From positions 1 through 64,000 of the forward strand of contig NZ_BCZQ01000005.1 of NCBI RefSeq assembly GCF_001598815.1: a stretch of 64,000 nucleotides of DNA, written 5' to 3'. Source of the stretch: Sphingopyxis terrae subsp. terrae NBRC 15098. Lineage in GTDB: Bacteria; Pseudomonadota; Alphaproteobacteria; Sphingomonadales; Sphingomonadaceae. How positions within the stretch are numbered: the stretch's first letter is position 1; each line of letters begins with the position of its first letter. Below are positions 34,943-42,368 of this stretch, one piece after another. Both the position numbers and the translations under genes were made by a program. The notes under the pieces were generated by a model, which worked only from the letters and a program-made list of their open reading frames with translations, was not told the origin of the DNA and made no database searches.

Positions 34943-34992
34943 TATCGCGAACGATTCGCATTATTGTTGACTCTGCGAACGACTCTCAATAG
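34943..34992. promoter_or_regulatory. Two Fur-box-like palindromes before the siderophore receptor
   Basis: TATCGCGAACGATTCGCATT (34943-34962) contains GCGAA-CGA-TTCGC, a 5-3-5 inverted repeat. A second, weaker copy (TGCGAACGACTCTCA) starts at 34974. They lie 35-85 bases upstream of the receptor start. The first 20 bases occur identically at 41159-41178, in front of the PepSY gene. The shape fits Fur-type operators of Alphaproteobacteria. Confidence 0.65.
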
Positions 34993-35027: not shown

Positions 35028-37385
35028 GTGAAGCCTGTTTCTTTCCTCGCTCTCTCCTGCGTCGGCAGCCTCGTCAGCGCGCCCGCGCTCGCCGCGACCG
35101 CCGACGATGCGCAGGATGCGCCCGGCTATCGGGAGAATATCATCGTCACCGGCACCAACGGCGTCGCGGTGGAAACGCCCAAATCGACCGCGCCGATCGT
35201 CGATACGCCGCAGACCGTGACCGTGGTGTCGGAGGAACAGATCAGGCAGCAGAATCTGCTGACGCTGCGCGACGCGCTTTCGACGATTCCGGGCATCACC
35301 TTCGGCGCGGGCGAAGGCGGCGGCGGCTATGGTGATTCGATCAACCTGCGCGGCTATTCGGCCAGCAACGACATCACCGTCGACGGCGTGCGCGACAGCG
35401 CGCAATACAGCCGCACCGACCCGTTCAACCTCCAGCAGATCGAAGTCTACAACGGCGCCAACTCGGTCTTCAACGGGTCGGGAAGCGTCGGCGGGACGAT
35501 CAATCTCGTCAGCAAGATCCCCTTCGCGCGCGATGCGACGACGGTGCAGGCCGCCGTCGGCACCGACAATTATTATCGGGCGGCGGTCGACAGCAACTGG
35601 CGGCTCAGCGACCTGATCGCGGTGCGCCTCAACGCCATGTATCATGAAAATGACGTGCCCGGCCGCGACGTCGAATCCTATCAGCGCTGGGGCATCGCGC
35701 CGTCGATCACCATCGGCGTCGACAGCGACACCAGCCTGACGCTCGCCTATATTCACCAGGATGACGACAACACGCCGATCTATGGCGTCCCCTATTTCCT
35801 AAGCGGCGTGAACGACGGCCCGCTGCCGGGCGTCGACGACAGCTCCTATTTCGGCATCGTCAATCTGGACGAACAAAAGACGAAGGTCGACCGCTTCACC
35901 GCGACCTTCCGCCACGCGTTCAGCGACGCCGTCTCGATCCGCAACCTCACGCGCTGGCAGCGCGTCCACCAATATAGCCAGACGAGCGCGCCGCAGGGTG
36001 TCTTCTGCCTCGCCAGCGGCTTGCAGCCCATCGGCGCGACGCCCGATGCCACCGTCGGCGTCCCCTGCCCCAGCGGCCAGGACATGGCGGGCTATTATTA
36101 CCCGGCCGGGCCGCGCGGACTGGTCCGCGATCAGCTCAACGAACTGCTCTACAACCAGACCGACCTCACGATCGTCAGCGGCACCAAGGGCGGCGTCCAC
36201 AACACGCTCGTCATCGGCGGCTCGCTGAGCCAGGAGGATTATTCGATCGAGGTCGCGCAATTGCTGCGCAACGCCGGCGGCGCAACGCCCAATCCCGTGC
36301 AGGGGCCGATCAGCCTGGCGAACCCCGACACCTATTGGTCGGGCCCGGTCAATTATGTCCGCACCGGCAACAGCTATGGCGATACGCGCGGCTGGGCGAT
36401 TTACGCCTTCGACACGCTCGAGCTTTCACCGATGTTCGAACTGAACGCCGGGCTGCGCTATGAAAATTCGCGCGCCAAGTTCCGTGCGGATACGGTGACG
36501 ACGCCCGCGACCGGCGCTGTCTACACCCGCGGCGCCGACCAGATCAGCGACGAAAATCTCTTTTCCTATCGCGTCGGCGCGGTGTTCCACCCGGTCGAAA
36601 ATGTCAGCCTCTATGCCGCCTACGGCAACAGCAAGACGCCGTCGTCGGCGACGGTCCGGCTCGGCTGCGGCACCAATTGCGACGTCGCGCCCGAAACCGG
36701 CCGCACTTACGAGATCGGGGCGAAAGCCGAGCTCATGGACAAGAAGCTGCTGCTCACCGCCGCGCTGTTCCGCAACGAACGCAGCAATTACCGCGTGCCG
36801 TCGAACGACGCCTCGCTGCCCAGCTCGCTGCAGGTGCTCGACGGCAAGTCGCGCGTCGACGGCTTCGCGCTCGGCCTGACCGGCGCGATCACGCCCAACT
36901 GGTCGATCTTCGCCAATTACACCTACCTCGACGGAACGGTGCGGCAGAGCGTGTCGGACTATTGCCTCGCCAACCCCGGCGGCGGCACCTGCACCAACAG
37001 CGCCGCCCTGCCCGACCCGCAGGCGGGCGACCGCCTGATCCAGACCCCGAAACATTCGGGCAGCCTGTTCACCACCTACACGCTGCCGTTCGGGCTGCAA
37101 ATCGGCTATGGCCTGACCTATCAGGGCAGCTTCGCGACCAGCCAGCGCAACATGGCGCAGCGCTCGCAATATTTCGTCGACGATTATCTGATCCACCGCG
37201 CGTTCGTGTCCTATGATTTCGGCAACGGCCTCGTGGCGCAGCTCAATGTGTCAAACCTGACCAACGAGGATTATTACACGGGCGTTCGCAACAATGTGAA
37301 CAGCACGACCGGCATCGTCACCGGCGGCTGGGCGACGCCCGGCGAGGAACGCTCGGCGGTGCTGAGCCTCTTCTACAAATTCTGA
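35028..37385 (+). CDS. TonB-dependent siderophore receptor
   Basis: 785 residues from a GTG start with AAGGGGG upstream. Signal peptide 'FLALSCVGSLVSAPALA'; TonB box region 'ENIIVTGTNG'; plug with 'STAPIVDTPQTVTVVSEEQIRQQNLLTLRDALSTIPGITFGAGEGG' and 'FNLQQIEVYNGANSVFNGSGSVGGTINLVSKIP', the signature of TonB-dependent siderophore receptors (FhuE/FoxA/Fiu type). The barrel ends '...ERSAVLSLFYKF' with a terminal Phe. Imports a ferric-siderophore complex; ligand unknown, and a catecholate is suggested only by the neighbouring PiuC gene. Preceded by Fur-like sites and a tonB-like gene, followed by a terminator. Confidence 0.93.
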   Translation: MKPVSFLALSCVGSLVSAPALAATADDAQDAPGYRENIIVTGTNGVAVETPKSTAPIVDTPQTVTVVSEEQIRQQNLLTLRDALSTIPGITFGAGEGGGGYGDSINLRGYSASNDITVDGVRDSAQYSRTDPFNLQQIEVYNGANSVFNGSGSVGGTINLVSKIPFARDATTVQAAVGTDNYYRAAVDSNWRLSDLIAVRLNAMYHENDVPGRDVESYQRWGIAPSITIGVDSDTSLTLAYIHQDDDNTPIYGVPYFLSGVNDGPLPGVDDSSYFGIVNLDEQKTKVDRFTATFRHAFSDAVSIRNLTRWQRVHQYSQTSAPQGVFCLASGLQPIGATPDATVGVPCPSGQDMAGYYYPAGPRGLVRDQLNELLYNQTDLTIVSGTKGGVHNTLVIGGSLSQEDYSIEVAQLLRNAGGATPNPVQGPISLANPDTYWSGPVNYVRTGNSYGDTRGWAIYAFDTLELSPMFELNAGLRYENSRAKFRADTVTTPATGAVYTRGADQISDENLFSYRVGAVFHPVENVSLYAAYGNSKTPSSATVRLGCGTNCDVAPETGRTYEIGAKAELMDKKLLLTAALFRNERSNYRVPSNDASLPSSLQVLDGKSRVDGFALGLTGAITPNWSIFANYTYLDGTVRQSVSDYCLANPGGGTCTNSAALPDPQAGDRLIQTPKHSGSLFTTYTLPFGLQIGYGLTYQGSFATSQRNMAQRSQYFVDDYLIHRAFVSYDFGNGLVAQLNVSNLTNEDYYTGVRNNVNSTTGIVTGGWATPGEERSAVLSLFYKF

Positions 37386-37391
37386 TCGACT

Positions 37392-37424
37392 CCGGGCGCG
37401 GCGATTGCCGCGCCCGGGCTTTTC
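37392..37424 (+). terminator. Rho-independent terminator after the siderophore receptor
   Basis: CCGGGCGCGGC (37392-37402) pairs perfectly with GCCGCGCCCGG (37407-37417) across a GATT loop, followed by GCTTTTC. The stem is 11 bp, the T run short. It would end or attenuate the receptor transcript 16 bases before the PiuC gene. Confidence 0.8.
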
Positions 37425-37439
37425 GGCATAGTAACGCGC

Positions 37440-38123
37440 ATGATCCGCATCATTCCCGACCTGATCGACGCCGCGGGCGTCAGGGCGCTCCGCACCATCC
37501 TCGATCGCGCCGACTGGATCGACGGCAACGAGACGTCGGGGCCGCAGGCGGCGCTGGCGAAACGCAACCAGCAGCTTCCCGAATTCGGCGACGCGGCGGT
37601 CGAGGCGGGCCGGATGGTGATCGACGCGCTCGGCCGCTCGCCGCTGTTCATGGCGGCGGCGCTGCCGCTCAAGATCTATCCCCCCTTCTTCAACCGCTAT
37701 TCGGGCGGGGAGGCGTTCGGCGATCATATCGACAATGCCGTGCGGATGCGGCGCGGCACCGATTTCCGAATCCGCAGTGACCTGTCGGCAACGCTGTTTC
37801 TGGCCGACCCCGACAGCTATGAAGGCGGCGGCCTGGTCATCGAAGGAATGGGCGAGGCGCCCGGCCTCAAGCTTCCCGCCGGCCACCTGATCCTCTATCC
37901 GTCGAGCACTGTCCACCGCGTCGAACCGGTCACAAGCGGTGTCCGCGTCGCCAGTTTCATGTGGATCCAGTCGATGATCCGCGATCAGGCGCAGCGCAAC
38001 CTGTTGTTCGACCTCGATCTGGGGGTTCAGGGCGCCGCAGCGGCGATGGGTCAGGGCGATCCGACGGTCGTCCGTCTGACCGGCGTCTATCACAATCTGC
38101 TGCGCCAATGGGCCGACGCCTGA
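37440..38123 (+). CDS. piuC: PiuC-like Fe(II)/2-oxoglutarate hydroxylase
   Basis: A 227-residue PKHD-type dioxygenase. The metal site H-x-D is 'GEAFGDHIDNAVR', with a distal His in 'PSSTVHRVEPVTSGVRVASFMWIQS'. 'FRIRSDLSATLFLADPDSYEGGGLVIE' and the C-terminal 'LTGVYHNLLRQWADA' match the YbiX/PiuC family. These proteins sit next to siderophore receptors (PiuA/Fiu), and their loss affects catechol-siderophore uptake; the natural substrate is unknown. It is cytosolic, directly after the receptor, with its stop 13 bp from the apbE stop. Confidence 0.9.
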   Translation: MIRIIPDLIDAAGVRALRTILDRADWIDGNETSGPQAALAKRNQQLPEFGDAAVEAGRMVIDALGRSPLFMAAALPLKIYPPFFNRYSGGEAFGDHIDNAVRMRRGTDFRIRSDLSATLFLADPDSYEGGGLVIEGMGEAPGLKLPAGHLILYPSSTVHRVEPVTSGVRVASFMWIQSMIRDQAQRNLLFDLDLGVQGAAAAMGQGDPTVVRLTGVYHNLLRQWADA

Positions 38124-38136
38124 ACGCCTTGCGCTT

Positions 38137-39084
38137 CTAATCCAGCATCGCGCGCCATTCACGCGAGGCATATTCGCGGCCGTCCGCGATCATCGACGCC
38201 GCAAGGCCCTGCGCATCGGCAAGTGCCATGCCGCGCTCGGGACCGACGATGGTGAGCGCGGTTGCCCAGCCGTCGGCGATCATGCAGCTGCGATGCACCA
38301 CCGTCACCGACGCTGCGCCGTTGACGATCGGGCGCCCGCTGCGCGGATCGAAGCTGTGCGAATAATGGCGGCCGCCGTCGGTAAAGCCGCGCCGGTAATT
38401 GCCCGAGGTTGCGACCGACAGGTCGTGCAGCGCCAGCCGCCAAGGCGCGAGCGACAGGCCGGGCGGCGGCTCGACATCGACCCACCAGGGCTGCCCGTCG
38501 GGCTGCACGCCCTCGCCGCGCAATTCGCCGCCGACCTCGATAAGAAAATGCCGCACCCCGCTCGCCAGCAGCTGCTCGGCAGCAAGATCGACGCCGAACC
38601 CCTTGGCGATCCCCGACAGATCGAGCGCCGCCCCCGTCCCGCGCCGGACGCGCGCCGTCGCGGCATCAAAGGCAATGTCGGGCGGCGCCTCGGGCGGCGC
38701 GATGTCGGGCGCCGCAGCGACCGGCCCGCCCGCACCGAAGCCCCAGCGCTCGGTCAGCAGGCCGAGCGCGGGATTGAACGCGCCGTCGCTCGCTTCGGCA
38801 ATCGCGGTCGCCGCAGCCATCACGCACGCAAATTCGGGCGGGATCGCGCGCCATTCCCCCGCAGGCGCGCGGTTCAGGCGCGACAGGTCCGATTCCGCTT
38901 CCCACTGGCTCATCTGCCGCACGACGCGGTCCAGCGCGCGCCGGACGCCCTCGCCCGCCGAAGCCGGTGCGTCAACCGCCTGCAGCGACCAGCTGGTGCC
39001 CATCGTCCGCCCCGAAAAGCGGCGGACCGACGCCTCCGGACGGCGCGCCGCAAAGGCGGCGGGCGTCAGCGCCCGGGGGATCAA
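38137..39084 (-). CDS. apbE: FAD:protein FMN transferase (ApbE)
   Basis: Attaches FMN from FAD to Thr/Ser of extracytoplasmic flavoproteins. A 315-residue protein with 'SGRTMGTSWSLQAV' (the conserved G-T-x-W/Y), 'DLSGIAKGFGVDLAAEQLLASGVRHFLIEVGGELRGEG' (FAD and Mg2+ binding) and 'SFDPRSGRPIVNGAASVTVV' (the D-P-x-T/S-G block). No convincing lipobox or signal peptide is seen at the N-terminus, which is unusual since the enzyme normally works in the periplasm. Last gene of the PepSY-DUF2271-DUF4198-apbE series; its likely substrate is the DUF2271 protein. Confidence 0.9.
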   Translation of the reverse strand: MIPRALTPAAFAARRPEASVRRFSGRTMGTSWSLQAVDAPASAGEGVRRALDRVVRQMSQWEAESDLSRLNRAPAGEWRAIPPEFACVMAAATAIAEASDGAFNPALGLLTERWGFGAGGPVAAAPDIAPPEAPPDIAFDAATARVRRGTGAALDLSGIAKGFGVDLAAEQLLASGVRHFLIEVGGELRGEGVQPDGQPWWVDVEPPPGLSLAPWRLALHDLSVATSGNYRRGFTDGGRHYSHSFDPRSGRPIVNGAASVTVVHRSCMIADGWATALTIVGPERGMALADAQGLAASMIADGREYASREWRAMLD

Positions 39085-39095
39085 TATCCGGTCCG

Positions 39096-39926
39096 TCAGG
39101 GCGCCATGACCTCAAGCGTCGTCACATAGCTTGCGCGGCGGGCAAGCGGCGGCGGGCCGCCCGCGCCGTCTTCGCGTTCCGCCTGCGGCGTGGTGACGTT
39201 GAGCCAGTACATGCCCGGTTCGGGCCAGTTGATCGCTACGGTGCCGTCGGCACCCGTCTTGAGATCGATCTGTCCCAACTGGTCGCGATAGCGGATACCG
39301 CCCGGGATCACCGTGACGGGCAGGCCCGCCGCGGGCTTGCCGTCGAGCAGGAACTGAAAGGTCGCGGTTTCGCCCGCGAACAGATCATTGGGGTGCGTCA
39401 CCGGCACCAGCTCGATGCCCTTGCCGGTCGGGGTGAACAGCGTCGTCGTCGGCTCGCCCACCGTCACGAAAATTTCGTTGCGGTTGTTCGCCTCGGCGGT
39501 TCGCACGTTGGTCGCCCCGGCGGGCAGGCGCTCGGCCAGATTGGCCGCGGTCGTCCCGCGCGGCAGGCGTTCGGTCTTGCCGTCCAGATCATAGCTGCCC
39601 ATCAGCATGTCGGCGACCGATGCGATGCGCCACGTTCCCTTCTGCGTCAGATGCACGTCGAAGGTGCTGCGATAGCGGCCCGTCGCCTTATTCTCGATCG
39701 ACGCCTCGCTACCGTCGGGCGCCCATGCCTTTACCGCGTCGAGCCGCAGCGGCTGATGCTCGAAATAGAACAGGTCGTTCGAAACGGCGGCGTCGACCGT
39801 CACCCACACATCGTCGCCCGACAGCACGGTCGAGGACGGCAGCATCCACTGGCGGTGCGCCTGCGCGGGCGCTGCGGCGAAAAGGGCCAGCGCGGCACTC
39901 GCGGCGATCAGCAATCGGGTCTTCAT
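39096..39926 (-). CDS. DUF4198 periplasmic protein
   Basis: A 276-residue secreted protein with signal peptide MKTRLLIAASAALALFAAAPAQAH. It opens the mature chain with the 'HRQWMLPSSTVLSGDDVWVTVDAAVSNDLFYFEHQPL' pattern typical of DUF4198. The C-terminal half is immunoglobulin-like ('ETATFQFLLDGKPAAGLPVTVIPGGIRYRDQ---IDLKTGADGTVAINWPEPGMYWLNV'). Family members occur next to metal-uptake genes and are thought to bind a metal or redox partner in the periplasm. The His directly after the likely cleavage site may be an N-terminal metal ligand. It lies 17 bp downstream of the DUF2271 gene. Confidence 0.85.
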   Translation of the reverse strand: MKTRLLIAASAALALFAAAPAQAHRQWMLPSSTVLSGDDVWVTVDAAVSNDLFYFEHQPLRLDAVKAWAPDGSEASIENKATGRYRSTFDVHLTQKGTWRIASVADMLMGSYDLDGKTERLPRGTTAANLAERLPAGATNVRTAEANNRNEIFVTVGEPTTTLFTPTGKGIELVPVTHPNDLFAGETATFQFLLDGKPAAGLPVTVIPGGIRYRDQLGQIDLKTGADGTVAINWPEPGMYWLNVTTPQAEREDGAGGPPPLARRASYVTTLEVMAP

Positions 39927-39943
39927 GATCGGTCCTCTCTGGA

Positions 39944-40474
39944 TCAACGGAAGGAAATCGAAACGGTGCCGAGTTCGGTCTTGCCCGCCGCGCGGCCCGC
40001 GGCCCCGGCTTTGGCGGGCCAGCGGAACGGAATGCGCAGCAACTCGCGCCCGCCGACTTCGCGCGCGGCCTCGATCACCAGGACATAATCGCCGGGCGCC
40101 TGCGCGCCGAGCTGGGCGCGGCTGAAGGCAATCTTGTGCGTACCCGGCGCACGCGTTGCGCCCGTTACGCCATTGGCCGGAAAGCGCATCGAACGGCCCG
40201 AGGCGCGCCACCACTGGCGCACGTCGCGCAGCCATTTGGTGCCCTCGTTATTCTTCATGTCATGGTCGTACCAGATCGCGACGGTCTTCGCGGGCGCGCC
40301 GGCCTTCTCGACCCAGATGGCGACATAGGGCCGATGATATTCGGCGACCTTGAGCTGGGGGATGGTGATGCTGACCTCCATCGTCCCCGGATCGGCGGCG
40401 AGCGCCGGGGCGGACAGCACCGCGCCGAGCCCCAGCGAGGCGCCGGTCAGGACGGATCGAAACTCGGTTTGCAT
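39944..40474 (-). CDS. DUF2271 protein, predicted ApbE flavinylation target
   Basis: A 176-residue exported protein: signal peptide to about residue 27 (ends 'SAPALAA'), then an all-beta DUF2271 domain ('MEVSITIPQLKVAEYHRPYVAIWVEKAGAPAKTVAIWYDHDMKNNEGTKWLRDVRQWW'). Residues 101-107 read NGVTGAT, matching the ApbE acceptor motif D-G-x-S/T-G-A-S/T except for Asn in the first position; Thr107 would carry FMN. Sits between the PepSY membrane protein and DUF4198 in one operon that ends with apbE, so it is the best candidate flavoprotein of the cluster. Confidence 0.82.
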   Translation of the reverse strand: MQTEFRSVLTGASLGLGAVLSAPALAADPGTMEVSITIPQLKVAEYHRPYVAIWVEKAGAPAKTVAIWYDHDMKNNEGTKWLRDVRQWWRASGRSMRFPANGVTGATRAPGTHKIAFSRAQLGAQAPGDYVLVIEAAREVGGRELLRIPFRWPAKAGAAGRAAGKTELGTVSISFR

Positions 40475-40483
40475 GGCATCTCC

Positions 40484-41125
40484 TTAATGGATGAAGAGGA
40501 TCGCGATGGCGGCGGGGATCGCCACCCCCGCGCCGACGAGCGGCCAGGTGCTCTTGCGCTTGGCCGAATGAAGCTGAAGCAGCACAAGCCCGGTCAGCGC
40601 GAACACCAGGCAGGCAAAGGCGAATATGTCGATGAACAGGCTCCACGCGCCGCCCGAATTGCGCCCCTTGTGCAGGTCGTTGAGATAGGAAATCCAGCCG
40701 CGGTCGGTGATTTCCGCGGTGGCGGCGCCCGTCGCGCGGTCGATCGCGACCCAGGCATCGCCGCCGGGACGCGGCGCGGCCATATAAACCTCGTCGGCGG
40801 ACCATTCGGCTTCGCCCGCACGGACCGGAAAATTCGCCTCGACCCACGCCGCAACCGGTGCGGGCAGCTCCCCCTTGCCGTCCGCCGGGTCCGCCGCCGC
40901 CAGCGCTTCGAGCAGCGGCGCTGGCAATTGCGCGCTACGCTCGGCAACGCGCGGTGCCCCCTCGATATCGGCGGCATGGTTCAGCGTGAAGCCCGTTATC
41001 GCGAACAGCAGTAGCCCGCTCAGGCTGATCGCCGAGCTCATCCAGTGCCACATGTGAAGCTGTTTGAGCCAGAAGGCGCGGCGGCTCTTCTTGGTCGGCG
41101 TGCGCGTTGGGGTCGGTGCTTGCAT
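40484..41125 (-). CDS. PepSY-associated membrane protein
   Basis: A 213-residue inner-membrane protein with an N-terminal helix ('KQLHMWHWMSSAISLSGLLLFAITGFTLNHA'), a periplasmic PepSY-like part ('WVAIDRATGAATAEITDRGWISYLNDLHKGRNSGGAWSLFIDIFA') and C-terminal helices. The His residues in the first helix ('LHMWHW') and in 'LNDLHKG' fit haem- or quinol-linked electron carriers of this family. It would pass electrons from the membrane to the periplasmic flavoprotein. I start at the ATG at 41125; a GTG at 41158 would abut the Fur-like box. First gene of the PepSY-DUF2271-DUF4198-apbE operon. Confidence 0.82.
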   Translation of the reverse strand: MQAPTPTRTPTKKSRRAFWLKQLHMWHWMSSAISLSGLLLFAITGFTLNHAADIEGAPRVAERSAQLPAPLLEALAAADPADGKGELPAPVAAWVEANFPVRAGEAEWSADEVYMAAPRPGGDAWVAIDRATGAATAEITDRGWISYLNDLHKGRNSGGAWSLFIDIFAFACLVFALTGLVLLQLHSAKRKSTWPLVGAGVAIPAAIAILFIH

Positions 41126-41158: not shown

Positions 41159-41178
41159 TATCGCGAACGATTCGCATT
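41159..41178. promoter_or_regulatory. Fur-box-like palindrome before the PepSY operon
   Basis: TATCGCGAACGATTCGCATT, identical over all 20 bases to the site at 34943-34962 upstream of the siderophore receptor. It lies 34 bases upstream of the PepSY start on the minus strand. The two copies bracket the iron cluster and predict common iron control. Confidence 0.68.
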
Positions 41179-41266: not shown

Positions 41267-41356
41267 TGGCGGAGACGGAGGGATTCGAACCCTCGGTACG
41301 GTTCCCCGTACGACGCTTTAGCAAAGCGTTGGTTTCAGCCACTCACCCACGTCTCC
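41267..41356 (-). tRNA. tRNA-Ser(GCT)
   Basis: A complete 90-nt type II tRNA including the encoded CCA. The acceptor strands GGAGACG and CGTCTCC pair perfectly. The anticodon arm is ACGCT-TTGCTAA-AGCGT, with anticodon GCT (reads AGC/AGT). There is a long variable arm (TACGGGGAACCGTA region) as expected for serine, and a T-arm GAGGG-TTCGAAT-CCCTC. It stands alone between the PepSY operon and the DUF1134 gene. There is no sign of an inserted element at its 3' end. Confidence 0.97.
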
Positions 41357-41594
41357 GCATGGTCTGCCGCGCGAACGGCAGGTTGGCCTGAGCGGGCGCT
41401 ATAGCCAGACCGATCCCGCCCCGCAACGCCTAACATTGGCCTTTTTGTCACTTATTCCCCTATTGGTCGGTCGAAATGATTCGGTCCGGCGCAAAATCGA
41501 CTCAAGTCATCGCCCGTTCATTGCCGCGCCGACAGGATGAGTCATGGTTAACCCGGCTTGCGGCGCCCGAAGCCGCCGATTTTTGGGGGAATAT

Positions 41595-42368
41595 ATGCGG
41601 AATGCGCTTACCAATATTGCCGTTGCGGCGGTCGCCTCGATCGGGCTGATGCTCGCCGGGCCGGCGGCGCACGCGCAGATGACATCGGTCGATCCCAATA
41701 CGGCGATCGATTCCGACCTCAACAATCCGGCGCCCCCGCCGTCTCCCCCGCCGGCCACGACGACGAGCGACCCGTCGCTCGACAGCGACCTTGCCACGGG
41801 CGCCGAGCAATATTCGGTCACCTCGCCCGATACGGGCACGACCACCGCTGCGCCTGCAACCGGGACGGCGGCCGCCGACGACACCACAACCTACAAGGAA
41901 GACGATCTGATCGGCGCTGCCGAAGGCGTCTTCGGCAAGGGTGCGCAGGGCCTCGCCGGCCTCATCGAAGATATTCTGAAGAAGCAGGGCGAACCCAACG
42001 CCTATATCGTCGGCCGCGAAGCCGGCGGCGCGCTCGGCATCGGGCTGCGCTATGGGTCGGGCACGCTGTACCACAAGATCGAGGGCGAACGCCCCGTCTA
42101 CTGGACGGGCCCCTCGATCGGCTTCGACGCGGGCGCCAATGCCGGCAACACCTTCGTGCTGGTCTACAATCTGTTCGACAGCGAGGATCTCTACAAACGC
42201 TATCCGGCAGGCGAAGGCGCCGCCTATCTCGTCGGCGGCTTCAACGCGAGCTATCTGCGCCGCGGCGACGTGGTGCTGATCCCGATCCGCGTCGGCGTCG
42301 GCGCGCGGCTCGGCGCCAATATCGGCTATATGAAATTCCGCAAAAAACAGAGCTGGGTGCCCTTCTGA
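41595..42368 (+). CDS. DUF1134 (EipA-like) envelope protein
   Basis: A 257-residue secreted protein: signal peptide 'MRNALTNIAVAAVASIGLMLAGPAAHAQ', a Pro/Thr-rich low-complexity stretch (about residues 40-110), then the DUF1134 domain ('EGVFGKGAQGLAGLIEDILKKQGEPNAYIVGREAGGALGIGLRYGSGTLYHK' through 'NIGYMKFRKKQSWVPF'). The family (EipA in Brucella) is a small periplasmic beta-barrel important for envelope integrity. I use the ATG at 41595, where the signal peptide begins; an ATG at 41544 would add 17 residues. Followed by a clear terminator. Confidence 0.88.
   Translation: MRNALTNIAVAAVASIGLMLAGPAAHAQMTSVDPNTAIDSDLNNPAPPPSPPPATTTSDPSLDSDLATGAEQYSVTSPDTGTTTAAPATGTAAADDTTTYKEDDLIGAAEGVFGKGAQGLAGLIEDILKKQGEPNAYIVGREAGGALGIGLRYGSGTLYHKIEGERPVYWTGPSIGFDAGANAGNTFVLVYNLFDSEDLYKRYPAGEGAAYLVGGFNASYLRRGDVVLIPIRVGVGARLGANIGYMKFRKKQSWVPF

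Follow-up and report, generated by a model that had tools for sequence, protein, structure and literature searches.

We analyzed a stretch of 64,000 nucleotides from Sphingopyxis terrae subsp. terrae NBRC 15098 (contig NZ_BCZQ01000005.1, positions 1 to 64,000; hereafter the window), focusing on a reverse-strand operon at 38137-41125 that encodes a PepSY-like membrane protein, a DUF2271 protein (PF10029), a DUF4198 protein and the flavin transferase ApbE. All four proteins exceed the curated Pfam cut-offs, in line with a preliminary description of this DNA that had named these families and placed apbE in the same operon, and the PepSY protein is also above the cut-off for PF03929 (7.4e-11). The operon comprises the following features:

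40484-41125, reverse strand: pepSY, PepSY-like membrane protein of 213 amino acids (PF16357, E 1.2e-74)
39944-40474, reverse strand: DUF2271 protein of 176 amino acids with a signal-peptide-like N-terminus, predicted carrier of flavin mononucleotide (FMN) (Pfam E 2.7e-44, translation)
40154-40174, reverse strand: predicted flavinylation motif NGVTGAT with acceptor Thr107 (translation, alignments)
39096-39926, reverse strand: DUF4198 protein of 276 amino acids, predicted to be exported, mature form starting at His24 (His1) (PF10670, E 2.3e-58)
38137-39099, reverse strand: ApbE flavin transferase without evident signal peptide, inferred CTG start (PF02424, E 8.2e-71)

Translation of apbE probably starts at the CTG at 39099, which overlaps the DUF4198 stop codon, rather than at the TTG at 39084 given in a mechanical list of open reading frames, since relatives begin with M-x-R-V-L-I-P. 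The order of the genes is conserved in 73 of the 74 loci for which all four were detected, out of 81 loci in total, and the closest named relatives belong mostly to Sphingopyxis. The combination of a PepSY-like protein, ApbE, DUF4198 and a DUF2271 protein with a signal-like N-terminus and a [S/T]GA[S/T] motif corresponds to the PepSY-like clusters of Méheust et al. 2021, reported in more than 3000 genomes and proposed there to reduce iron, sometimes from siderophores (PMC8238504). The window shares with these clusters the four families, the acceptor motif and the iron-reduction proposal, and differs by an Asn at motif position 1 and by an ApbE lacking an evident signal peptide; the A. ursilacus apbE tested there is taken to encode one, as it was made "signal peptide-truncated" (PMC8238504). 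The locus itself is an ordinary, added member of this published type. The idea of the preliminary description, that a flavinylated DUF2271 protein receives electrons from PepSY and reduces ferric siderophore, is essentially the published one, the observation being right and the interpretation largely right but known. New in our analysis are a palindrome common to the operon and a neighboring receptor gene, the co-occurrence of ApbE and DUF2271 in 62 of 62 genomes, the His1 and fold likeness of DUF4198, and the signal-less N-terminus of ApbE.

Translation of 40474..39944 yielded a DUF2271 protein of 176 residues, with NGVTGAT at residues 101–107 (coded by 40174..40154) and TGAT at 104–107, exactly the position given before (bases 40154-40174). 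The motif match is above chance as judged by alignment: it coincides with the acceptor site conserved in DUF2271 proteins, and all 31 rows from the bacterial family of the window have the final Thr of this site. Likewise, this Thr is kept in all 82 DUF2271 sequences from the 81 loci, window included, in a census made by pattern for 73 sequences and by eye for nine. Position 1 of the motif is D in 62, N in 17, A in 2 and S in 1 of these sequences; inspection of the 31 same-family rows by eye gave D 19, N 9, A 2 and S 1, and Pro in place of the Ala preceding the acceptor Thr in 12 rows. In view of the 17 sequences with Asn, we reject the notion of the Asn as a defect. The earlier concern that it might block ApbE is answered by this census together with reported mutagenesis, a review stating that Asp to Ala in the motif of a Klebsiella target has only minor effects (PMC12052999); as far as the alignments go, the Asn says little against flavinylation. 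That DUF2271 proteins are ApbE substrates is well supported and published for the family and the cluster, the A. ursilacus protein being flavinylated by its cognate ApbE in a manner abolished by a Thr to Ala exchange (PMC8238504).

The N-terminus of DUF2271 is signal-like in 80 of 82 sequences by a crude, home-made hydrophobicity rule at its lax threshold (1.6). As the strict threshold (2.1) retains just 22 of these 82 controls, only the lax one has power for DUF2271. Twin-arginine export is unsupported, the window protein having no RR. An RR pair falls within the scanned stretch of 24/82 rows, a stretch that often reaches 5' of the start codon, and many of the remaining RR rows are of an MRRLL type, unlike the classical twin-arginine motif. 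Comparison of DUF2271 with solved structures returned a single hit, a weak one to a protein made by design.

The link between carrier and transferase was assessed in 199 genomes of the same bacterial family, each at least 90% complete. DUF2271 was found in 62 and ApbE in 72 of these, and every DUF2271 genome also carries ApbE (62/62; Fisher p 2e-41, a value that ignores relatedness). FMN_bind is present in eight of the ten ApbE-only genomes as well as in two DUF2271 genomes. ApbE also occurs in genomes with neither a DUF2271 nor an FMN_bind match (L189/L206 in G088; L192/L205 in G021). The genome of the window encodes one ApbE and one DUF2271 protein and gave no FMN_bind match, NqrB/RnfD-type and DUF3570 targets not having been searched for.

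The surroundings of the operon contain four further relevant features:

41159-41178, no strand: Fur-like palindrome 5' of pepSY, exact copy of 34943-34962; predicted Fur site
34943-34962, no strand: Fur-like palindrome 5' of the TonB-dependent receptor gene, same 20 bp; predicted Fur site
35028-37385, forward strand: Fiu-like TonB-dependent siderophore receptor (CciT/PiuA type; TIGR01783 above cut-off)
37440-38123, forward strand: PKHD-type Fe(II) dioxygenase (PiuC/YbiX/CciO type; NF003975 and NF003974 above cut-off)

The palindrome, TATCGCGAACGATTCGCATT (20 bp), lies 5' of both pepSY and the receptor gene, two matches in the window versus 0.01 expected, with no further exact copy elsewhere in the genome. 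We take it to resemble a Fur box and infer that Fur would bind at both sites. Allowing up to three mismatches, the degenerate box has eight matches in the genome versus three for a reversed control, the window pair being the only one without mismatch; weaker matches adjoin a TonB-receptor-like (L043) and a cysteine-desulfurase-like (L047) frame, as judged by eye. Across the 81 loci, which are related to one another, a site with at most 3 mismatches to a 15-position pattern derived from the window occurs 5' of pepSY in 54 and inside the gene in none (0/81). The receptor matches the Fiu model with an E value of 1.3e-108, yet stays below the cut-off of that model. Receptor and dioxygenase genes lie convergent to the operon; where the flank measures 4.5 kb or more (71 loci), a receptor match was found in 44 loci and both genes in 39, 34 of these in convergent arrangement. 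The functional unit probably extends to both iron-box-like sites and to these convergent genes at 35028-38123.

A similar regulation is described for Caulobacter, whose cluster CCNA_03155-03159 / CC3059-3063 likewise comprises a PepSY-family transporter gene, DUF2271, DUF4198 and ApbE and is iron regulated (PMC3751524, PMC12004947). It is induced by iron limitation and by loss of Fur, with Fur binding to the promoter (PMC3751524), and insertions reduce fitness in ethylenediaminetetraacetic acid (EDTA; PMC12004947). The equivalent receptor and dioxygenase pair, cciT/cciO, has far-off locus numbers there, in contrast to the convergent neighbors in the window. Furthermore, Alteromonas DUF4198/DUF2271 genes are reported to go up under iron limitation (PMC7190382). 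Immediately 5' of the pepSY box of the window lies a tRNA-Ser gene (anticodon gct; 41267-41356, reverse strand), and a gene of the EipA family (envelope integrity protein A; 41544-42368, forward strand) adjoins the operon.

For the PepSY protein, His27, His50, His152, His186 and the C-terminal His213 are conserved in 77–80 of 80 rows, as would be anticipated if they bound haem as in FoxB and other PepSY proteins (PMC11334425), so that haem is predicted. The protein resembles the siderophore reductase FoxB in being a PepSY-type membrane protein with conserved His residues expected to bind haem, but is shorter, is linked to DUF2271 and has no sequence match among solved chains. The electron route through PepSY for iron reduction, which the preliminary description had assumed, is well supported as published for the family and the cluster (PMC8238504). 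The genome contains eight further PepSY_TM matches, four of them strong (L033, L034, L035, L036), in frames of 379–691 amino acids, as well as a FeoB-like frame of 709 amino acids.

In DUF4198, AxA precedes HRxW in all 67 pattern-matching rows among 84 hits, with cleavage predicted at this site, and His1, His34 and His155 are invariant in 36/36 rows, although the first His was itself part of the pattern used to pick these rows. The structural model (predicted local distance difference test, pLDDT, 91) resembles Zcp with Z up to 18.8 (root mean square deviation 4.2, 212 aligned residues) and the nickel-bound IsDUF4198 (9GCB) with Z 14.0 (6.1, 201 aligned). Both relatives share the β-sandwich, and IsDUF4198 also the N-terminal His after processing; it binds Ni with a dissociation constant of 18 nM via His1 and His18 (PMC12537917). 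In the window protein position 18 is Trp, and the invariant His34 and His155 could serve as ligand instead. Judged from the model, DUF4198 likely binds metal; this part of its earlier assignment as a holder of released metal gains support from the solved structures, and no test of iron was found in the sources consulted.

The operon could instead reduce or capture a different metal (copper, nickel or zinc), in which case DUF4198 would carry it and PepSY/DUF2271 would act as its reductase. IsDUF4198 is reported to prefer Ni, then Zn and Co, in a main text in which the word "iron" is absent (PMC12537917); the Zcp entries in the PDB contain zinc, copper and cobalt, a literature search having found no paper on Zcp; and links to copper are reported for one PepSY_TM protein and for a family of TonB transporters (PMC13038864, PMC12914433). 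These observations are set against the Fur-like box common to the operon and the Fiu-like siderophore receptor and against the Fur- and iron-regulated Caulobacter equivalent (PMC3751524), and we consider a role in another metal unlikely.

The ApbE model matches the solved structure 5mgy (E 8.1e-29, template modelling score 0.81), and His248 and Asp276 are invariant in 31 chosen rows. The upstream stop codon and the TMGT strand are separated by 35 residues, in which hydropathy over 12 residues peaks at 1.37, compared with medians of 1.90 for DUF2271 and 2.34 for DUF4198. At the named loci, the lax rule scored 10/74 stand-alone ApbEs as signal-like, versus 80/82 DUF2271 proteins and 78/84 DUF4198 hits. 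A phylum sample gave 5/42 for stand-alone ApbEs, 4/4 for ApbE-DUF2271 fusions, 45/49 for DUF2271 and 46/50 for DUF4198; ApbE was detected in 46 of its 70 stretches, whereas in the remaining 24 it may be too diverged or lie elsewhere. Among the 46, 14 came from loci whose DUF2271 was missed by our own profile but found by Pfam. In a family sample, 6/75 stand-alone ApbEs, including ApbEs without DUF2271, and the one fusion (1/1) were signal-like, the controls being poor (DUF2271 23/32, DUF4198 29/56) as the stretches were cut around ApbE. The sets of named and unnamed loci share some records. By this rule the ApbE of the window and most alpha- and betaproteobacterial relatives examined have no evident signal peptide and appear to carry a conserved N-terminus instead, a point that the preliminary description had not remarked on.

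This N-terminus contains R-h-h-h-P (h, hydrophobic), located 23–32 residues before TMGT in 69 of the 74 ApbEs at the named loci. It was found in 11/46 ApbEs of the phylum sample, and is therefore not universal. Profile matches to solved ApbEs start at position 18 or later, past the segment. In a tree of 83 picked ApbE rows, the 31 rows labelled as R-h-h-h-P fall within a single 36-row branch, whose support of 94/95 is just below the star. Two of the five additional rows, L050 and L115, bear the motif but were mislabelled; as labelled the motif requires six changes. The ApbE-DUF2271 fusions L187, L254, L255, L257 and L275, single proteins with a signal-like N-terminus, form one branch. Another type of ApbE, encoded close to diverged DUF2271 genes (L258-L274, 14 loci, and L202), has its own branch and an N-terminus like M-S-K-T-x-T-D-L-x-R-H-A-L-N-G-P-TMGTRW, likewise without evident signal peptide. 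In Sphingosinicella soli, apbE is split over two overlapping frames (L067 and L204, seemingly one record).

Three accounts of this N-terminus were weighed. ApbE may reach the periplasm via an unrecognised signal, of which R-h-h-h-P would be a part, or via a partner, with flavinylation taking place there as usual. The conservation of the motif speaks for this, as do some Cupriavidus ApbE N-termini that satisfy the lax rule, the signal-like fusions and the likewise signal-like L110, L126 and L306 ApbEs; the segment is, however, short and interrupted by Arg and Pro in the window and most relatives, and in the model it forms a short strand and a helix, with moderate confidence (mean pLDDT 72 for residues in the first block of ten and 80 in the second). 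We regard this account as possible but somewhat doubtful. Alternatively, the signal-less ApbE would modify a different, cytosolic protein, leaving DUF2271 unflavinylated in this organism. The compartment mismatch between ApbE and DUF2271 would fit, as would the ApbE of Klebsiella pneumoniae, which also lacks a signal peptide but serves a soluble cytoplasmic fumarate reductase rather than an exported-looking protein (PMC12052999). Yet the absence of an FMN_bind match in the genome, within the families searched, the complete co-occurrence, the conserved operon order and the invariant acceptor Thr render such a target highly improbable.

Thirdly, a widespread alpha- and betaproteobacterial ApbE clade, marked by R-h-h-h-P, may load FMN in the cytosol before secretion of the carrier, with no need for export of flavin adenine dinucleotide (FAD), an idea that we put forward tentatively. 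The lack of an evident signal peptide on ApbE is the reason for considering such loading before export. According to the review, ApbE needs only the seven-residue motif, best at a terminus (PMC12052999), and action on an unfolded precursor is therefore plausible. Against it stand the reported failure of a truncated cytosolic ApbE in vivo in the classical system and the cytosolic target of the signal-less Klebsiella enzyme (PMC12052999). In the literature searched, which covered openly readable main texts, we found no discussion of an exported DUF2271 paired with an ApbE that lacks a signal peptide.

Taken together, we consider it probable that the operon encodes a ferric-reductase module that acts in the periplasm, is regulated by iron and belongs to the PepSY-like/DUF2271 type already published. 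This reading is favoured because of the domains and their order, the acceptor Thr, the co-occurrence with ApbE, the common box, the FeoB-like protein, the PepSY His residues and the literature, in which no test of the DUF2271 module as a reductase was found among the texts available. Several observations weigh against it. No box-like site was found at the chosen threshold in 27/81 loci, and no receptor match in 27/71 loci with sufficient flank. No gene for a cytosolic-side reductase partner lies next to the operon, whereas the fifth gene of the Caulobacter cluster is a flavoprotein reductase without counterpart here (PMC3751524). ApbE has no evident signal peptide by the crude hydrophobicity rule while its DUF2271 target looks exported; in the classical system a truncated cytosolic ApbE is reported to be inactive in vivo (review PMC12052999).

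In the ferric-reductase module, ApbE would attach FMN to Thr107 of DUF2271, as demonstrated for a homologue elsewhere, and this may precede the export of DUF2271 and take place in the cytosol, the least certain step. PepSY would supply this FMN with electrons drawn from the cytosol or the inner membrane, and the reduced flavin would in turn reduce ferric chelates imported by the co-regulated Fiu-like receptor. DUF4198 may bind the released divalent metal via its N-terminal His, as its relatives suggest, and Fe(II) would enter through FeoB.

The cluster type thus represents a plausible route for periplasmic iron reduction. What keeps the locus of interest is the export signal that ApbE lacks and the clean test that the genome offers, with a single ApbE, a single DUF2271, no FMN_bind match and a neighboring receptor gene with the same box. 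If ApbE does act before export, periplasmic flavoproteins could in some cases be assembled without FAD outside the cytosol.

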